Shown here piece after piece: positions 13,959 through 63,080 of a stretch of DNA of 64,000 nucleotides. The notes below the pieces were generated by a model. The model searched no databases. It was not told the origin of the DNA and worked only from the letters and a program-made list of their open reading frames with translations. Numbering within the stretch: position 1 is the first letter of the stretch; the number at the start of each line of letters is the position of its first letter. This DNA comes from Psychrobacillus vulpis (GTDB taxonomy: Bacteria > Bacillota > Bacilli > Bacillales_A > Planococcaceae), in assembly GCF_006861825.1 (NCBI RefSeq), contig NZ_VDGI01000007.1:44034-108033 (forward strand), written 5' to 3'. Both the position numbers and the translations under genes were made by a program.

Positions 13959-14711
13959 TTACTTTTTATTTTTTACTACACCTAGTATATAGCCGGATGC
14001 AGCAATAACAAGCAGGACAGTCCAGAAAATAATACTCCAAGTTGTTGAATGCGGGAAATGCTCATCTAAAATTCCTACTTTTGGATGTGAAAGCGTTAAT
14101 ACAGCTAGCTTCACTCCTACCCAACCAACAATTAAAAATGCTGCTGTTTCCAATGTAGGATATTTTTCAAGTAACTTAACAAACTTATGAGCAGCAAATC
14201 GCATAATAATAAGTCCAATTACTCCACCTAAGAACATAACAGCGAATTGTCCGCCGTTTATTCCACCAATCTCATAGCTACCTAGATGCGGTAATGTAAC
14301 TGCGATAGCTACTGCTGCAAGCATTGAATCAATTGCAAATGCAATATCAGCTAGCTCAACTTTTAATACTGTAACCCAAAAGCCAGAACCCTTTTTTTCT
14401 TTTTCTTCAACATCTTTTTCATCATCTTTTTTCCGTGAATCATAAATATGTTTAATGGAAATAAACAGTAAATATGCTGCTCCTATTGCCTGCACCTGCC
14501 AAATGTTCACCAGGAACGTAATCATAAATAATGCTAAAAATCTAAAGATGAATGCCCCTAACAAACCATAAAATAATGCTTTTTTCTGCTTATCTTTAGG
14601 TAAGTGTTTTACCATAACAGCCATTACGACTGCATTATCTGCTGCCAATAAGCCTTCTAATCCAACTAGGACAAGTAATACCCATCCATACTCCAATAAT
14701 ATTGTTTCCAT
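13959..14711 (-). CDS. TerC family membrane protein (YkoY/YceF-like), manganese-related
   Basis: Integral membrane protein of about seven to eight segments with the TerC signatures GLEGLLAADNAVVMAVMV and VELADIAFAIDS, whose acidic residues are thought to bind metal. TerC proteins of this type (YkoY, YceF/MeeY) have been linked to Mn2+ efflux and metalation of exported proteins. A charged cytosolic loop (SRKKDDEKDVEEKEKK) divides the halves. The 250-aa frame starts at ATG 14711 with GGAGG six bases upstream. The yybP-ykoY riboswitch in its leader supports Mn2+-dependent control. Confidence 0.88.
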   Translation of the reverse strand: METILLEYGWVLLVLVGLEGLLAADNAVVMAVMVKHLPKDKQKKALFYGLLGAFIFRFLALFMITFLVNIWQVQAIGAAYLLFISIKHIYDSRKKDDEKDVEEKEKKGSGFWVTVLKVELADIAFAIDSMLAAVAIAVTLPHLGSYEIGGINGGQFAVMFLGGVIGLIIMRFAAHKFVKLLEKYPTLETAAFLIVGWVGVKLAVLTLSHPKVGILDEHFPHSTTWSIIFWTVLLVIAASGYILGVVKNKK

Positions 14712-14733
14712 TAATATCCTCCTCATTGCATAT

Positions 14734-14885
14734 AAAAAGACCCCTGCCTTTAAGAAGGCAAAGGTCTTGCTAAGCAATTAGTATAATTACTATCATAACC
14801 GATGGCAGATGCCATGTAATGACGACTATGAAATAGGTTTCCCTATAGCTACTCCCCTTTGACAAAAGTCAAAAGTCTATTTAAT
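14734..14885 (-). ncRNA. yybP-ykoY manganese riboswitch with terminator
   Basis: The minus strand carries the class hallmark AAAGGGGAGTAGC (14849-14861), then GGGAAACC, a TAGTCGTCA segment and a distal stem, and ends in a terminator hairpin (14734-14768) of GACCTTTGCCTT paired with AAGGCAGGGGTC plus a T-run, 23 bp before the terC start. The family binds Mn2+ and turns expression on when Mn2+ is abundant. Confidence 0.9.
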
Positions 14886-16052: not shown

Positions 16053-19000
16053 TCAGTCATTATTTGTTGGTGTTGCTTTTCTTCTAGTTTGTTTATCAAA
16101 TAAACTGTATATTACTGGCACCACGTAAAGTGTTAAGAAAGTAGAACTGATTAAGCCCCCAATAACAGTAATCCCCATAGGCTGATTAATCTCTGTTCCT
16201 TCTCCTATACCTAGTGCAAGTGGAACTAAACCTAAAATAGTTGTTAATGCGGTCATTAATATAGGACGGACTCGATCTCTAACTGATGTTGTAATTGCTT
16301 CGAATGAGTCCATACCATCTGCTTTTCGCTGATTAATATAATCTACTAAAACAATTCCGTTATTCACAACAATTCCAACTAGAATTAGAATTCCAATAAC
16401 AGTCGAAATACTTATTGGTGTACTTGTAGTAAATAGACCAATGAATATCCCAATCGTAACAAGAGGTACTGTAAACATAATAACGAAAGGATATTTATAA
16501 GATTCAAATTGGGCAGCCATAACGATATATACTAATACGACCGCCAGTAATACTGCCAATATCATATCATTTTTAGCATTATCTAATAACTCTCTATCCC
16601 CGCCAAATGAGATGAGAACATTATCTGCCAATGCTACTTGGTCAATTGCTTCATCAACAAAATCAGACATTTCACCTAAAGAGTAATTTGATTCATATTT
16701 TATAGTGAATGTAACTGCTCCTGCTTGATCGACTCTTCTTATTGTTAATGGTCCTTCTGCTATTTCTACATCCGCAACATCTTGTAACATAATGAATTGT
16801 CCAGAAGGAGTTCTAAGTTTAAGTTGCTTTAGTTGTTCGACGCTATTACGATACGCCTCGTCATATTTCACATATACTCCGTAAACATCCTCATGTTCCG
16901 AAATAATTTGGGTGGCAAATGCTCCTCTAGTAACATTATTTACTGTTTGAGCGATTTGTACTGGTGCTAGACCATATTCAGTTGCCGCCTCTTTCTTTAC
17001 AGTCATTTGTACTTCTTCGACTTTTTCTGTTAAATCGTTTCTTATGCTTGTAACACCTGGAATCTTATCCACTTCTTTATAGATTGATCCAACTGCATGA
17101 TTTAATTGATCTTTATCTGCTGAAGAAATAGTGAAAGATAGAGAGTTCGGAGCTGAACCAGCAGCCGTTTGCATATTAAAATTCACTTCTACATTTTCAC
17201 CAGCCGCAGCTATTACTTTCGGTTGAACTTCATCTACAAAAGTAAAAATAGAACGACTTCGATCTTCTAACGGAATCATCTTGACATATATTTCAGCCAT
17301 ATTAGACTTCGAGGTTCCTCTAGATTGGCCTTCTTGGTTTCCTCCAACAAAACTTACGTAAACTTCTACATCTTTTTCTTTTTGTAATTGCTTCTCTATT
17401 TTCTTTACAACTTCGTCCGTTGCTAAAAAAGAAGATCCATTTTCAAGTCTTACTGCAATAGTGACAAATCCTTCATCAGTCGCAGGTAAAAATTCCGTCC
17501 CCGTGCGGAACAGTCCAAGCGTTGAAATAAGTAACAAAATAACTGTAATCGAAAGTATCAAAGCACGATGGGATAATGACCATTTTATAGAACGTTCAAA
17601 ATTATTGTATGCTTTCGAACGTCTTCTTTTTGCTTCTATATTCCCTTTTGGCTTCGTAAGCATCCTACTTGCCATCATAGGTATCACCGTAATCGCAACT
17701 ACTAATGAAGCAAATAAACTAAACGAAATAGTTAAAGCAAATTCAGTAAAAATTTGTCCTATTAATCCAGAAAGAAATACTACTGGTACAAAAACGGCAA
17801 CGGTTGTTAGAGTAGAAGCTGTAATAGCCCCAACTACTTCCTTTGTTCCGATATAAGTTGCTTCTTTTGGATTTTTTCCTAACCCTAAGTGCCTTTCTAT
17901 ATTTTCGATTACAACAATAGAATTATCTACAAGCATGCCTATACCAAGTGCTAATGCACCTAACGTCATAATATTTAATGAAAATCCAGCAAAATACATT
18001 AAAACAAACGTCACAATTACTGAATAAGGAATTGCTACACCTACAATAATTGGACTTCTAATGCCTTTCAAAAAGACGAACAATACGAGCATTGCTAAAA
18101 TTCCACCTGTTATAAGGGTTGTGCCAATATTGTCTATAGCAAGCTTTACATAATCACCTTGATCAAATAAAATATTTGCTTTTACTCCACTGAACTCTTC
18201 TGTTGCAAGTTGCTTCTCTAACGCTTTTTGAAACGCCTTTGATACACTTGCAGTATTGGCACTAGATTCTTGAAAAACAGATAACAAAACGGCCGGTTCA
18301 TTATTCGCTCTCGTTTCTGAATTCTGTTCTTTTTCAGCAAGTTGAACCGTAGCTATATCTGCAATCGTTACTTTGGTCCCATCAAGCGGATTTACTGTAA
18401 CAACTAAATTTTTTATATCATCCAGATTCGTTAGAGAGCTGACTATTCTTGTTGTAAGCAATTTATTATCTTCAGTTTCAATAGGATTCCCCGGTAACGA
18501 TATATTATTTGCTTGGATTAGTTGTACAATGTCATTTTGCGTAAGCCCTTTTTCTTCTAATACATTCTGATCGAGTAAAATTTGTACTTCTTCTACAAGT
18601 GTTCCAGAAACATTAACACTTGCAACTCCCTTTGTACTAATTAGTTCCTTTTCTAATTTCTCTGCTACTAGCCTAATATCTTCATCTGAACTTGTCCCAC
18701 TCAAAGCTAATTGAATTACTGGAAATTGCGCAGGATCAAACTTCAGAAACTGTGGCCTTCCAACATCTTCAGGAAGTATCGTTACGTCCATCCTTTGCAT
18801 AACATCTAGTTCTATTTCATCCATATTCGTAGACCAATCAAATTCTAATAAGATAAAGTTGGCACCTTCCTGTGAAGTACTTTTGATCGACTTTATCCCA
18901 GGTAAAGTACTTAAGGAAGATTCTAATGGTTTTGTTACTTTTTCATTCACTTCTACTGGACTGGCACCAGGATAACTTGCCACTACGACACCTATCGGAG

Positions 19001-19124
19001 GATTTAGGTCCGGTATTAAAGTAATAGGAATTTTAAAAAAAGAAACTCCACCTAAAATAATTATTAAAAACATAATTACGGTCGTAAATATTGGCCTTTT
19101 TATGGAGAAATCACTTATTTTCAT
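16053..19124 (-). CDS. swrC: RND family efflux transporter (SwrC/YerP-like)
   Basis: 1023-residue AcrB-type resistance-nodulation-division protein: an N-terminal transmembrane helix (IKRPIFTTVIMFLIIILGGV), two large periplasmic-type loops, and two sets of six helices. The fourth-helix motif GIGMLVDNSIVVIENIER carries the proton-relay Asp. It resembles B. subtilis SwrC (about 1065 aa), which confers surfactin self-resistance and supports swarming; drug or lipid export is inferred from the family. It starts at ATG 19124 with AAGGTGG upstream. It is followed by the reductase gene in the same transcription unit. Confidence 0.88.
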   Translation of the reverse strand: MKISDFSIKRPIFTTVIMFLIIILGGVSFFKIPITLIPDLNPPIGVVVASYPGASPVEVNEKVTKPLESSLSTLPGIKSIKSTSQEGANFILLEFDWSTNMDEIELDVMQRMDVTILPEDVGRPQFLKFDPAQFPVIQLALSGTSSDEDIRLVAEKLEKELISTKGVASVNVSGTLVEEVQILLDQNVLEEKGLTQNDIVQLIQANNISLPGNPIETEDNKLLTTRIVSSLTNLDDIKNLVVTVNPLDGTKVTIADIATVQLAEKEQNSETRANNEPAVLLSVFQESSANTASVSKAFQKALEKQLATEEFSGVKANILFDQGDYVKLAIDNIGTTLITGGILAMLVLFVFLKGIRSPIIVGVAIPYSVIVTFVLMYFAGFSLNIMTLGALALGIGMLVDNSIVVIENIERHLGLGKNPKEATYIGTKEVVGAITASTLTTVAVFVPVVFLSGLIGQIFTEFALTISFSLFASLVVAITVIPMMASRMLTKPKGNIEAKRRRSKAYNNFERSIKWSLSHRALILSITVILLLISTLGLFRTGTEFLPATDEGFVTIAVRLENGSSFLATDEVVKKIEKQLQKEKDVEVYVSFVGGNQEGQSRGTSKSNMAEIYVKMIPLEDRSRSIFTFVDEVQPKVIAAAGENVEVNFNMQTAAGSAPNSLSFTISSADKDQLNHAVGSIYKEVDKIPGVTSIRNDLTEKVEEVQMTVKKEAATEYGLAPVQIAQTVNNVTRGAFATQIISEHEDVYGVYVKYDEAYRNSVEQLKQLKLRTPSGQFIMLQDVADVEIAEGPLTIRRVDQAGAVTFTIKYESNYSLGEMSDFVDEAIDQVALADNVLISFGGDRELLDNAKNDMILAVLLAVVLVYIVMAAQFESYKYPFVIMFTVPLVTIGIFIGLFTTSTPISISTVIGILILVGIVVNNGIVLVDYINQRKADGMDSFEAITTSVRDRVRPILMTALTTILGLVPLALGIGEGTEINQPMGITVIGGLISSTFLTLYVVPVIYSLFDKQTRRKATPTNND

Positions 19125-19185: not shown

Positions 19186-19225
19186 ATACGAAAAAAGATA
19201 AACAGGACGAGCTCACGAGAGTAAT

Positions 19226-19570
19226 AGCGGATACAGAATATTGGATTTGCGGATGTGGGCTTGGAATTTGCGCTTAGCGGCTGGGTACTTGCGATTAGGG
19301 CTGACTTTGCGTTTGGGTGAACTTGCGCATAGAGTCTTTGAATTTGCACATACGAGCTTTGAACTTGCGCATATGGGCTTGGAATTTGCGCTTAACGGGT
19401 GAGAACTTGCGCTTTGGACTGAATTTGCGTTTGACACGCTTTAATTTGCACATAGAGTCTTTACATTTGCAGATACAATCTTGGAATTTGCGATTAGCGA
19501 GTGGGAACTTGCGCATAACCGGAAGGAACTTTCGATTTGGGATGAATTTGCATATAGAGTATACAATTGG
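19226..19570. repeat. Nested 21-bp-period tandem repeat array
   Basis: Sixteen degenerate units centred on (A/G)A(A/C)TTGCG occur with TTGC at 19247, 19268, 19289, 19307, 19323, 19344, 19365, 19386, 19407, 19425, 19446, 19467, 19488, 19509, 19530 (TTTC) and 19548. Spacing is 21 bp except for three 18s and one 16. Groups of units recur as larger blocks starting near 19257, 19375 and 19478. Because nearly all steps are multiples of three, frames stay open on both strands, giving pseudo-proteins with 7-residue periodicity, but none has a ribosome site. Function unknown. Confidence 0.85.
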
Positions 19571-19590
19571 CACTTGTGTAGCTATAAATT

Positions 19591-19626
19591 AAAGAGGTCA
19601 TCTGATTGAACAAGATGACCTCTTTT
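19591..19626. terminator. Terminator after prfC
   Basis: AAAGAGGTCATCT pairs with AGATGACCTCTTT around an 8-10 nt loop, immediately after the prfC stop codon. Confidence 0.85.
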
Positions 19627-19629
19627 GAA

Positions 19630-21204
19630 TTAAAGAAGATTATATAGTTTTATGTGTTCGTATTTATCTTGGAACCATCTTGTAGCGAATTCATTTTCAA
19701 ATAAGAAAACATATTGATCGTAACGGTCTCGCACTAGCATACTTCTTGGACCTGTCATCGATTCTTTTACGTCTTCTTCATTTTCAATCCATCGAGCTAC
19801 TTTTGAACCAATTGGCTCCATACGTACTTCTACATTGTATTCATTTTTCATACGGTGCTCAAATACTTCAAATTGTAGCTGTCCTACTGCTCCTAAAATA
19901 ACTTCTTCTGTATGGAGAGTCTTATAATATTGAATAGCACCTTCTTGTACTAATTGTAAAATACCTTTATGGAAATGCTTAGACTTCAATACGTTTTTGG
20001 CAGTTACTTTAACGAATAGTTCTGGAGTAAATTGAGGAAGTTTTTCATAATTAAATGCTTTTTTTCCTCCAACTACAGTATCGCCTATTTGATAATTTCC
20101 AACGTCATATAGACCAATGATATCACCCGCTACTGCAACATCTACAGTTTCACGATCATCTGCTAAAAATTGAGTAGATTGCGTTACTTTGAAATTTTTC
20201 CCAGTACGAGCAAGCGTGACATTCATTCCTCTTTCGAACTTACCAGATACGATACGGACGAAAGCAATACGATCTCGGTGAGCAGGGTTCATATTCGCTT
20301 GAATTTTAAAGATGAAACCAGAAAATTCTTCTGTTAATGGATCTACCACTTCGCCATTATCTGCATTACGTGGCTGTGGAGTTGGAGCAAATTGTAAGTA
20401 AGTCTCTAAAAATGTTTGTACCCCGAAATTCGTCAATGCGCTTCCAAAGAATACAGGTGTTAGATCTCCTGAAAGTACTTTTTCTTTGTCAAAGTCATTA
20501 CCTGCTTCATTTAACAGCATAATGTCTTCCATTGCCTGCGTATAATAGGAAGTTTTTTTCATTGGATGATCAACTGCTAGTTCACCGTCTTCATCTAAGG
20601 GCAGGTATCTTTCTTCTTCTTCTGTACGGAATTGTTCAATTCGGTTATTAAAACGATCATAGATTCCTAAAAACTCTTTCCCCATACCAATAGGCCAATT
20701 CATAGCATATGACTGGATTCCTAACACTTCTTCTAGTTCTTCCATCAGTTCCAATGGTTCTTTTCCTTGACGGTCGAGTTTATTAATAAACGTGAAAATC
20801 GGAATCCCTCTCATTCGACATACTTTAAATAGTTTTAAAGTTTGTGCTTCGATTCCTTTAGCAGCATCGACAATCATAACAGCGCTATCTACAGCCATAA
20901 GCGTACGATACGTATCTTCACTGAAATCCTGATGCCCTGGAGTATCCAAAATGTTAATTCGACAATTATTAAAATCAAATTGCATGACAGAAGATGTAAC
21001 CGAAATACCACGTTGCTTTTCGATTTCCATCCAGTCCGATGTTGCAAATTTCCCTGTTTTTTTTCCTTTTACTGTTCCTGCATCACGAATTGCTCCACCA
21101 AAGTATAAAAGCTTTTCTGTAATAGTTGTTTTACCAGCATCTGGATGGGAAATAATTGCAAAAGTTCTTCGTTTTAGTATTTCATCTTTTATTTTTAAGT
21201 CCAT
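19630..21204 (-). CDS. prfC: Peptide chain release factor 3
   Basis: Translational GTPase RF3, which removes RF1/RF2 from the ribosome after peptide release. G1 is SHPDAGKTT, the effector loop includes [14 protein letters not shown]3 DTPGHQDF and G4 NKLDR. The 524-residue length and the C-terminal domain ([19 protein letters not shown]) are typical of RF3 rather than EF-G. It starts at ATG 21204 with AAGGAG 11 bases upstream. It is monocistronic with its own promoter and terminator. Confidence 0.95.
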
Positions 21205-56730: not shown

Positions 56731-56789
56731 GTTTTCAGTCTTGATTTTTGAGTTTCTTCTATAATATAATGTTCAAAACAATATAGCTA

Positions 56790-58034
<1,245 letters not shown>

Positions 58035-62093: not shown

Positions 62094-63080
62094 CTAGATG
62101 ACCTCCTTATTTGTAGTGGTCATCGCTACTTTATGGATGACCTCCTTGTTTGTAGTGGTCATCGCTACTTTATGTGTATCTGAAAGAGAATATAAGTCAA
62201 ACACACGACCATCCTCATCAAAATATTGATACTCTTCTTTTTGATAGTTTTGTTCCACAGTAATCCGTTCTCTTTTACGTGATTCCCTTGTGGAAGGTTC
62301 TATCGTTGGAATAGCAGATAATAATCGTTTCGTATAAATATGTTGAGGAGACTGATAGACATCTTGACGATTTCCAGACTCAACAAAACGTCCTTTATAC
62401 ATTATCGAAATATGATCACACATATGCTTTACTACACCTAAATCGTGTGAAATAAATAAATAACTCAGACCTAGTTCTTTTTGAATATCTTTCAAGTAAT
62501 TCAATACTTGGGCTTGTACAGACAAGTCAAGAGCAGATACAGGCTCATCTGCTATAATCAATTTTGGATTTGTTGCAATAGCTCGTGCAATTCCAATACG
62601 TTGTTTTTGTCCTCCAGAAAATTCATGTGCGTATTTTAACTTTGCGTCTTCTGGCATTCCGACAATTGCTAGTAATTCATTAATTTTACGTTTTTCTTCT
62701 AAATCAGAAAGCTTCAAAAAGTTACGAATTGGTTCAGCGATAATATCTTGAACCCTTTTCCTTGGATTTAAACTAGAATTTGCATCTTGGAAAATCATTT
62801 GGATATCCTTGTTAAAACTAGAATTTCGATTACGACTTTTGTTTGTGACATCTTCTCCCTCGTATATAATACTTCCAGAAGTCACTTTCTCAAGTCCGAT
62901 AATCGATTTGCCTGTCGTGGATTTACCACACCCAGATTCTCCAACCAAACCATAAGTTTTTCCTTTCTCAAACTCTAAACTGATGCCGTCAACTGCTAAC
63001 ACATTGTCTACAACTGCGTTAAAGAATCCCCCACGTATTGGGTAATGTACATGTAAATCATTAATTTGCATAAAACTCAT
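62094..63080 (-). CDS. appF: Peptide ABC transporter ATPase AppF-like, with duplicated C-terminus
   Basis: 328-residue ATPase: Walker A GESGCGKST, signature FSGGQKQR, Walker B LIIADEPVSALD, switch His in ISHDLG. The C-terminus ends in two identical copies of HKVAMTTTNKEVI, encoded by a 39-bp tandem duplication, so the protein is 13 residues longer than expected. ATG 63080 overlaps the appD stop by 4 bp, with GGAGG nine bases upstream. Confidence 0.92.
   Translation of the reverse strand: MSFMQINDLHVHYPIRGGFFNAVVDNVLAVDGISLEFEKGKTYGLVGESGCGKSTTGKSIIGLEKVTSGSIIYEGEDVTNKSRNRNSSFNKDIQMIFQDANSSLNPRKRVQDIIAEPIRNFLKLSDLEEKRKINELLAIVGMPEDAKLKYAHEFSGGQKQRIGIARAIATNPKLIIADEPVSALDLSVQAQVLNYLKDIQKELGLSYLFISHDLGVVKHMCDHISIMYKGRFVESGNRQDVYQSPQHIYTKRLLSAIPTIEPSTRESRKRERITVEQNYQKEEYQYFDEDGRVFDLYSLSDTHKVAMTTTNKEVIHKVAMTTTNKEVI
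62097..62174 (-). repeat. 39-bp tandem duplication carrying a ribosome site
   Basis: Two copies (62097-62135 and 62136-62174) differ at one base. Each contains GGAGGTCATC on the minus strand; the copy nearest appB supplies its ribosome site, the other lies within appF. The repeat is 13 codons, so appF stays in frame. Confidence 0.92.

Follow-up and report, generated by a model that had tools for sequence, protein, structure and literature searches.

Phase-spaced direct-repeat arrays at gene ends in Psychrobacillus and other Bacillales: candidate platforms for lineage-specific DNA-binding proteins

The intergenic region behind prfC of Psychrobacillus vulpis carries an array of diverged direct repeats in which a conserved core and a variable spacer alternate at a period of 21 bp. 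Arrays of this anatomy occupy many sites in the same genome and reappear, across several species, in corresponding gaps behind genes, with the spacing retained and the core differing between lineages. With moderate confidence, and on sequence grounds, we take these arrays to be non-coding, helically phased platforms, phase-locked for putative lineage-specific DNA-binding proteins, a reading that fits the data better than neutral slippage, mobility, an RNA function or coding.

Results

Anatomy of the array behind prfC

The stretch analysed (the window) comprises 64,000 nt of contig NZ_VDGI01000007.1 of P. vulpis, whose genome (G000) has 4.02 Mb. Unit placement by a dynamic-programming chain, with the core matrix set by hand, gave 18 direct units at 19222..19585 of the plus strand, where a preliminary description had counted 16. 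Each unit consists of the core AAYTTGCGNWTA, approximately seven variable bases and a closing TG. The steps between units were, in order, 22, 21, 21, 18, 16, 21, 21, 21, 21, 18, 21, 21, 21, 21, 21, 18 and 20 bp, i.e. 11 steps of 21 bp, three of 18 bp and one each of 16, 20 and 22 bp; the three 18-bp steps and the 16-bp step described earlier were all recovered. Tandem Repeats Finder called periods of 21, 42 and 123 bp. The best lag among 10–59 was 21, with an identity of 0.483 (19231-19582), and all 1000 first-order Markov shuffles of this segment stayed below it (mean of the best lag 0.324, maximum 0.404); the 21-bp array is thus borne out and is larger than first described. Ungapped repeats also revealed a higher-order organization with block spacings of 118 and 102 bp, in line with the blocks of about 118 and 103 bp noticed before. 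The reference copy of this block family (D1) lies at 19320..19428 on the plus strand; other copies are at 19202, 19422 and 19443, the best of them, 76% identical, spanning 19443..19551 on the same strand.

The array is followed by a perfect 13-bp inverted repeat (19591..19625), probably a terminator, and by the 3′ end of prfC (19630..21204, minus strand), assigned to peptide chain release factor 3 from its ORF and an NCBIfam equivalog. On the other side lies the 5′ end of an RND efflux permease gene (16053..19124, minus strand). These flanks are placed as the preliminary description had them; the name swrC given there to the permease is that description's own. All NCBIfam hits of the product fell below their cut-offs. 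Elsewhere in the window, we observed a yybP-ykoY manganese riboswitch (14710-14869) and a T-box leader (56785-57003), both by Rfam, and a 39-bp tandem repeat of two copies with 97% match (62097-62174).

Open frames of 91 aa (plus) and 92 aa (minus) run over the array, as had been pointed out, and 21 bp correspond to seven codons, so that a repeat protein or its fossil had been considered. This origin is hardly credible for the arrays as a class, and coding by the window array is very unlikely: steps indivisible by three break the frame in 60 of 113 array rows, among those of the window array are 16, 20 and 22 bp, the period in Bacillus infantis is 20 bp, and both Pfam matches were below cut-off. 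A function as transcribed 3′ UTR repeats, for example in termination or as protein sponges, would suit the gene 3′ ends that adjoin the arrays; we nevertheless regard it as quite improbable. The window array folded no better than shuffles on either strand (z 0.83 and 0.02) and contained no inverted repeat of at least 12 bp, none of the arrays searched matched an Rfam family at gathering score, and the strand of TTGC-family arrays relative to the adjoining gene is mixed.

Arrays elsewhere in the P. vulpis genome and an IS256-family element

When G000 was searched with the window array, further arrays were found. The pattern AAYTTGCN{14,19}AAYTTGC gave 75 matches versus 2 for the reversed control, and chaining with the window core placed 215 units in 14 array segments with 201 steps, 156 of them exactly 21 bp (the chain prints 170 units as 21 bp, 14 of which are terminal units assigned 21 by default). 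These first-family segments total approximately 4.4 kb of the 4.02 Mb. Across the units, conservation extends over AA-Y-TTGC-G-N-W-TA and the closing TG and is lacking at positions 12-18. A second core family of G000, CGAGCATA, has steps of mainly 21, 19, 40 and 42 bp and was met only beside copies of an IS256-family element (L251, L252, L253 and L254 on contigs C23, C4, C76 and C21); within the L254 array there is an insert a few hundred bases long.

One end of this element, the transposase of which scores as IS256 family, gave eight matches in G000; one of these marks the contig end of a copy that borders on an array with its other end (C13). Six of the seven readable flanks run straight into arrays, three per core family. 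The remaining flank is separated by 54 bp from the outermost recognisable unit of a CGAGCATA array. For two arrays split at contig ends, joining the flanks yielded duplications of 9 and 7 bases and brought the units back into phase, so that each segment pair represents a single array split by the element; the 14 segments then become 12 arrays. The contig ends had suggested arrays beside rRNA operons, but none was found and the ends proved to be the IS256-family element. This association may reflect targeting or tolerance. If the arrays do act as platforms, the landing sites of the element would be explained, and the element might conceivably use the platform for insertion. At the end of contig C5 (L043), an array segment was observed between an rve-type transposase gene and the IS256-family element.

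An array adjoins the 3′ end of each of two NERD-domain genes of G000 (L039 and L047), with side and strand alike in both, which suggests joint duplication of gene and array. The NERD-domain protein was considered as array partner and dropped: the duplication would explain the pair, and a by-eye look outside the genus showed no likeness.

Core families in related genomes

A search of related genomes, as proposed in the preliminary description, revealed arrays with 21-bp spacing, so that the pattern is not absent from relatives. The genus sample comprised 19 genomes and the family sample 261; a search at order level gave the identical 261. Pairs of CTTGCGATT at 21 bp were present in 13 of the 19 genus genomes, with none in G000 (21 in G001, 8 in G005, 14 in G006, 21 in G008, 7 in G010, 17 in G014, 16 in G015, 7 in G016, 15 in G018 and 1-3 in four others). 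GTGRAACT pairs at this distance occurred in four genus genomes (71 in G004, 10 in G001, 8 in G010, 1 in G008) and TTACTNGCG pairs in six (36 in G001, 27 in G006, 14 in G015, 9 in G013, 6 in G007, 2 in G017); the reversed controls of all three words gave 0. A further genus core, TTGCGWTAY, is the main one in G003. No match to the four exact-21-bp patterns was obtained in G002, G009, G011 and G012, which may lack arrays or use other words. A looser pair pattern matched 17 of the 19 genus genomes, several of them at the level of the reversed control. At family level, 19 of 261 genomes contained AAYTTGCG pairs at 21 bp, 11 of these with a single match, compared with single control matches in four genomes. 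G022, which belongs to another genus, has its own core, AACTTGCGTCACTCG. G001 contains three core families and G000 two, which implies that one protein would be insufficient.

The spread beyond the family rests on named prfC loci and on two whole-genome searches. A scan of 430 non-coding segments at 80 prfC loci, all taken from named records, gave 15 strong lags. Eight of these were 20, 21, 40 or 42, and the other seven were 52 (twice), 39, 35, 25, 18 and 15. Among the first eight, the array-like segments belong to Sporosarcina sp., B. infantis, Lentibacillus jeotgali (two), Oceanobacillus massiliensis and a Bacillaceae-like contig filed as Chryseobacterium, and the segments of L060 and L075 are A/T-rich and doubtful as arrays. 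The whole genome of B. infantis contained 36 pairs of the core ATTAGYAACTT at exactly 20 bp, and that of L. jeotgali 110 pairs of AACTYGTG at 21 bp, with controls of 0 in both cases.

Quantised spacing, conserved cores and free spacers

Steps were tallied after de-duplication in 111 distinct array rows from the genus and G022. Steps of 21 bp (185) and 42 bp (48) were the most frequent, the dominance of 21 bp being in part due to selection because the arrays had been collected with 21-bp patterns. The others were 20 bp (17), 19 bp (7), 18 bp (1), 29 bp (12), 28 bp (2) and 39-41 bp (27), with only two steps in the range 22-27 and two in 30-38; steps of 7 bp (9) and 14 bp (7) mostly represent a second search-word match within a unit. 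Apart from 21 bp, the range 15-38 bp held 44 single steps, and 40 of these were 18-20 or 28-30 bp long (binomial p 2e-19 versus uniform, with windows chosen after seeing the data). The 10-bp gap between the 19- and 29-bp steps hints at helical phasing, and it is to be taken as a hint because neither length corresponds to whole turns of 10.5 bp; both steps are absent in L. jeotgali, where the regions taken gave 93 steps of 21 bp, 34 of 42 bp, 19 of 63 bp and 8 others. Block lengths were about 82, 92, 103, 113, 123 and 134 bp. In several species, an odd unit carries an A-rich word in place of the core.

Spacer and position analyses were based on 106 array rows from loci picked with four search patterns, after dropping the duplicate loci L159 and L172, with ORFs from a crude caller; the TTACTNGCG and CGAGCATA families are outside these rows. 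After de-duplication, the spacers of nine genus genomes carried 0.06-0.27 bit and the cores 1.4-1.9 bit. Part of the core is fixed by the regular expression, and the positions that it leaves free in G000 (0, 1, 10 and 11) carried 1.3-1.8 bit. In G022, which has a longer core, the spacer value was 0.90 bit. For each of the ten genomes tabulated, the mean likeness of spacers between its arrays differed from the column-shuffled value by no more than 0.01. Near-identical spacers between arrays exceeded the shuffled expectation (0.034 versus 0.002 in G005, 0.006 versus 0.003 in G001), the excess of such pairs being slight in G001, G003, G014 and G022. Since spacers are mostly not common to arrays, copying between arrays is not the main cause of the likeness of their cores; constraint on the core would be the simpler reading of why cores stay alike.

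Of the three origins suggested in the preliminary description, conserved cores, free spacers and quantised spacing favour an array of protein-binding sites along one helix face, with binding itself putative. Each core of about 8-12 bp would be recognised by a sequence-specific DNA-binding protein. With cores on the same strand at intervals of two turns (20 or 21 bp), successive sites would be presented to the protein on one helix face, so that an occupied array could form a long protein-coated platform. Core and reading protein would change together in each lineage, and the arrays of a core family would then agree in their cores while their spacers differ.

Position relative to genes and recurrence in several species

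The arrays were assigned to 62 distinct sites, grouped by hand, of which 22 lie in convergent gaps, 34 in tandem gaps, 3 in divergent gaps and 3 at contig edges; counting the L042 array of G000, which lies on the far side of its LytR-type gene, as a site of its own gives 63 sites with 35 tandem and leaves the conclusion unaffected. For comparison, 114 other gaps of at least 150 bp from the same loci comprised 13 convergent, 70 tandem and 31 divergent ones (convergent versus divergent, Fisher p 3e-6). From these distributions, arrays are scarce in gaps between two promoters and frequent at the 3′ ends of genes. Two species nevertheless share an array-bearing divergent gap (L222, L238). The L. 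jeotgali arrays showed 10 convergent, 15 tandem, 0 divergent and 4 edge positions.

Clustering of neighbour proteins identified 14 intergenic gaps in which arrays recur in 2-7 species. The most widely occupied were the gaps at cggR/glutaredoxin-like (7 species), ilvD (7, including G000 and G001), degU/NERD (6) and prfC/permease (6, one of these with GTGRAACT); the genes named degU and ilvD are presumed to be such from their sequences. Like neighbour genes formed 29 clusters, and in 23 of them side and strand of the array were the same in every species. Among the other six, three have an array on the opposite side of the gene, two were not assignable (L139 has arrays on both strands) and one is discordant, between the different genera of G005 and G022. 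Because the gaps recur and the TTGC family nearly always keeps one orientation, the arrays look inherited in place while their cores turn over. In G003, CTTGCGATT-like units persist in two short arrays and at the edge of a long one, which looks like an older word being replaced by TTGCGWTAY. The idea of a fast-evolving structural repeat, also raised in the preliminary description, therefore holds in that cores and spacers differ between species and fails in that sites, orientation and the 21-bp step persist.

Minisatellites or VNTRs are tandem blocks that change in copy number, and the arrays resemble them in their tandem units and in a copy number that varies between species. Blocks of approximately 82-144 bp are tandemly copied within arrays, and at one site 28 core matches were counted in G006 (L153) and 3 in G013 (L154). 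It is thus conceivable, if unlikely, that the arrays are neutral minisatellites whose blocks expand and contract through unequal crossing over or slippage, drifting unread by any protein. One core, however, is common to 14 dispersed segments of G000, whereas unrelated minisatellite loci would have no sequence in common, cores are alike across arrays with differing spacers, and array-bearing gaps are common to several species; moreover, non-permitted step lengths are rare and promoter-promoter gaps are under-used.

Miniature mobile elements, each put in place whole by a transposase or recombinase and later enlarged by tandem insertion, would account for the many sites per genome. They would also suit two by-eye observations: the prfC gap holds differing core families by species, with an oppositely oriented TTACTNGCG-like array in some species and no array in others, and a GATTCNNAAAA-like motif forms the end of several arrays and is also found internally at 29-bp steps. 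We nevertheless consider such elements improbable, as the TTGC family keeps gap and orientation in several species, which points to vertical descent. Carriage by phages or plasmids was likewise discarded, since the window array had no match in the plasmid or phage collections and, of 27 stretches from viral contigs, those with at least three cores were homogeneous repeats, mostly at multiples of three. Behind prfC of several species of the genus, another intergenic repeat (around GGACGCTTTCCGCGGGG ... GGAGTCGCC, and variants) was observed by eye with or instead of the array (L156, L159, L160, L161, L164-L166, L168-L170).

Relation to known repeat systems and possible role

REP/BIME elements are short intergenic repeats downstream of genes, often in convergent gaps and some species-specific (PMC3733652; PMC1525189), and REP elements are reported as insertion-sequence targets (PMC1525189). 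The arrays share with these elements, which are mainly proteobacterial, the location downstream of genes and the convergent preference, and in G000 also the insertion-sequence association. REPs, in contrast, are palindromes with GTAG or CGTC tags, whereas the arrays consist of direct, non-palindromic units in 20-21 bp phase with free spacers, and the window array has no foldable palindromic unit. Iteron arrays of plasmid origins and par centromere repeats comprise direct repeats of approximately 20 bp in helical phase with lineage-specific cores and a cognate protein. Direct repeats in helical phase are common to both, but the arrays described here occur many times per chromosome and at gene ends, and no identified neighbour is a replication or partition gene; the array-neighbour genes run against families, a minority of the neighbours, included no replication initiators. 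CRISPR arrays have near-identical repeats of 23-55 bp and unique spacers and thus likewise alternate a conserved word with a variable spacer; the present arrays differ by a core of approximately 12 bp, a 9-bp spacer, a period of 21 bp and diverged, drifting units in many small arrays. Among the matches listed in open-licence full text, a scope that most subscription papers lie outside, no description of this repeat class was seen. From its sequence features, the class would be categorically new, and less so should the arrays prove neutral.

By position and by analogy with BIME/REP, a platform at transcription-unit ends might serve topological or transcriptional insulation or supercoil handling, which is a guess. 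Tentatively, we envisage in Bacillales a hidden layer of platforms at the ends of transcription units, in which a fast-evolving reader family and its arrays would switch the word together while positions and two-turn spacing stay, as an insulator or chromosome-organising system. If proteins do read the cores, the arrays would provide a large, easily testable set of bacterial multi-site binding platforms. They would also amount to a natural experiment, in which sites and two-turn spacing are constant and the word is swapped between lineages.

Array strand

A tracking of the leading strand by array strand was considered for the genus and was not significant: the strand of TTGC-family arrays did not follow local GC skew (Fisher p 0.18), with 9 arrays against and 2 with the skew in G000. 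In L. jeotgali, 28 of 29 arrays in the regions taken were on one strand, and agreement with the skew was strong, a weak test because nearly all of these regions have positive GC skew. In tandem gaps of this species, 13 of 15 arrays agreed with the gene strand and two opposed it. One 86-kb contig of L. jeotgali carries 18 arrays (L287-L300), approximately one per 5 kb.
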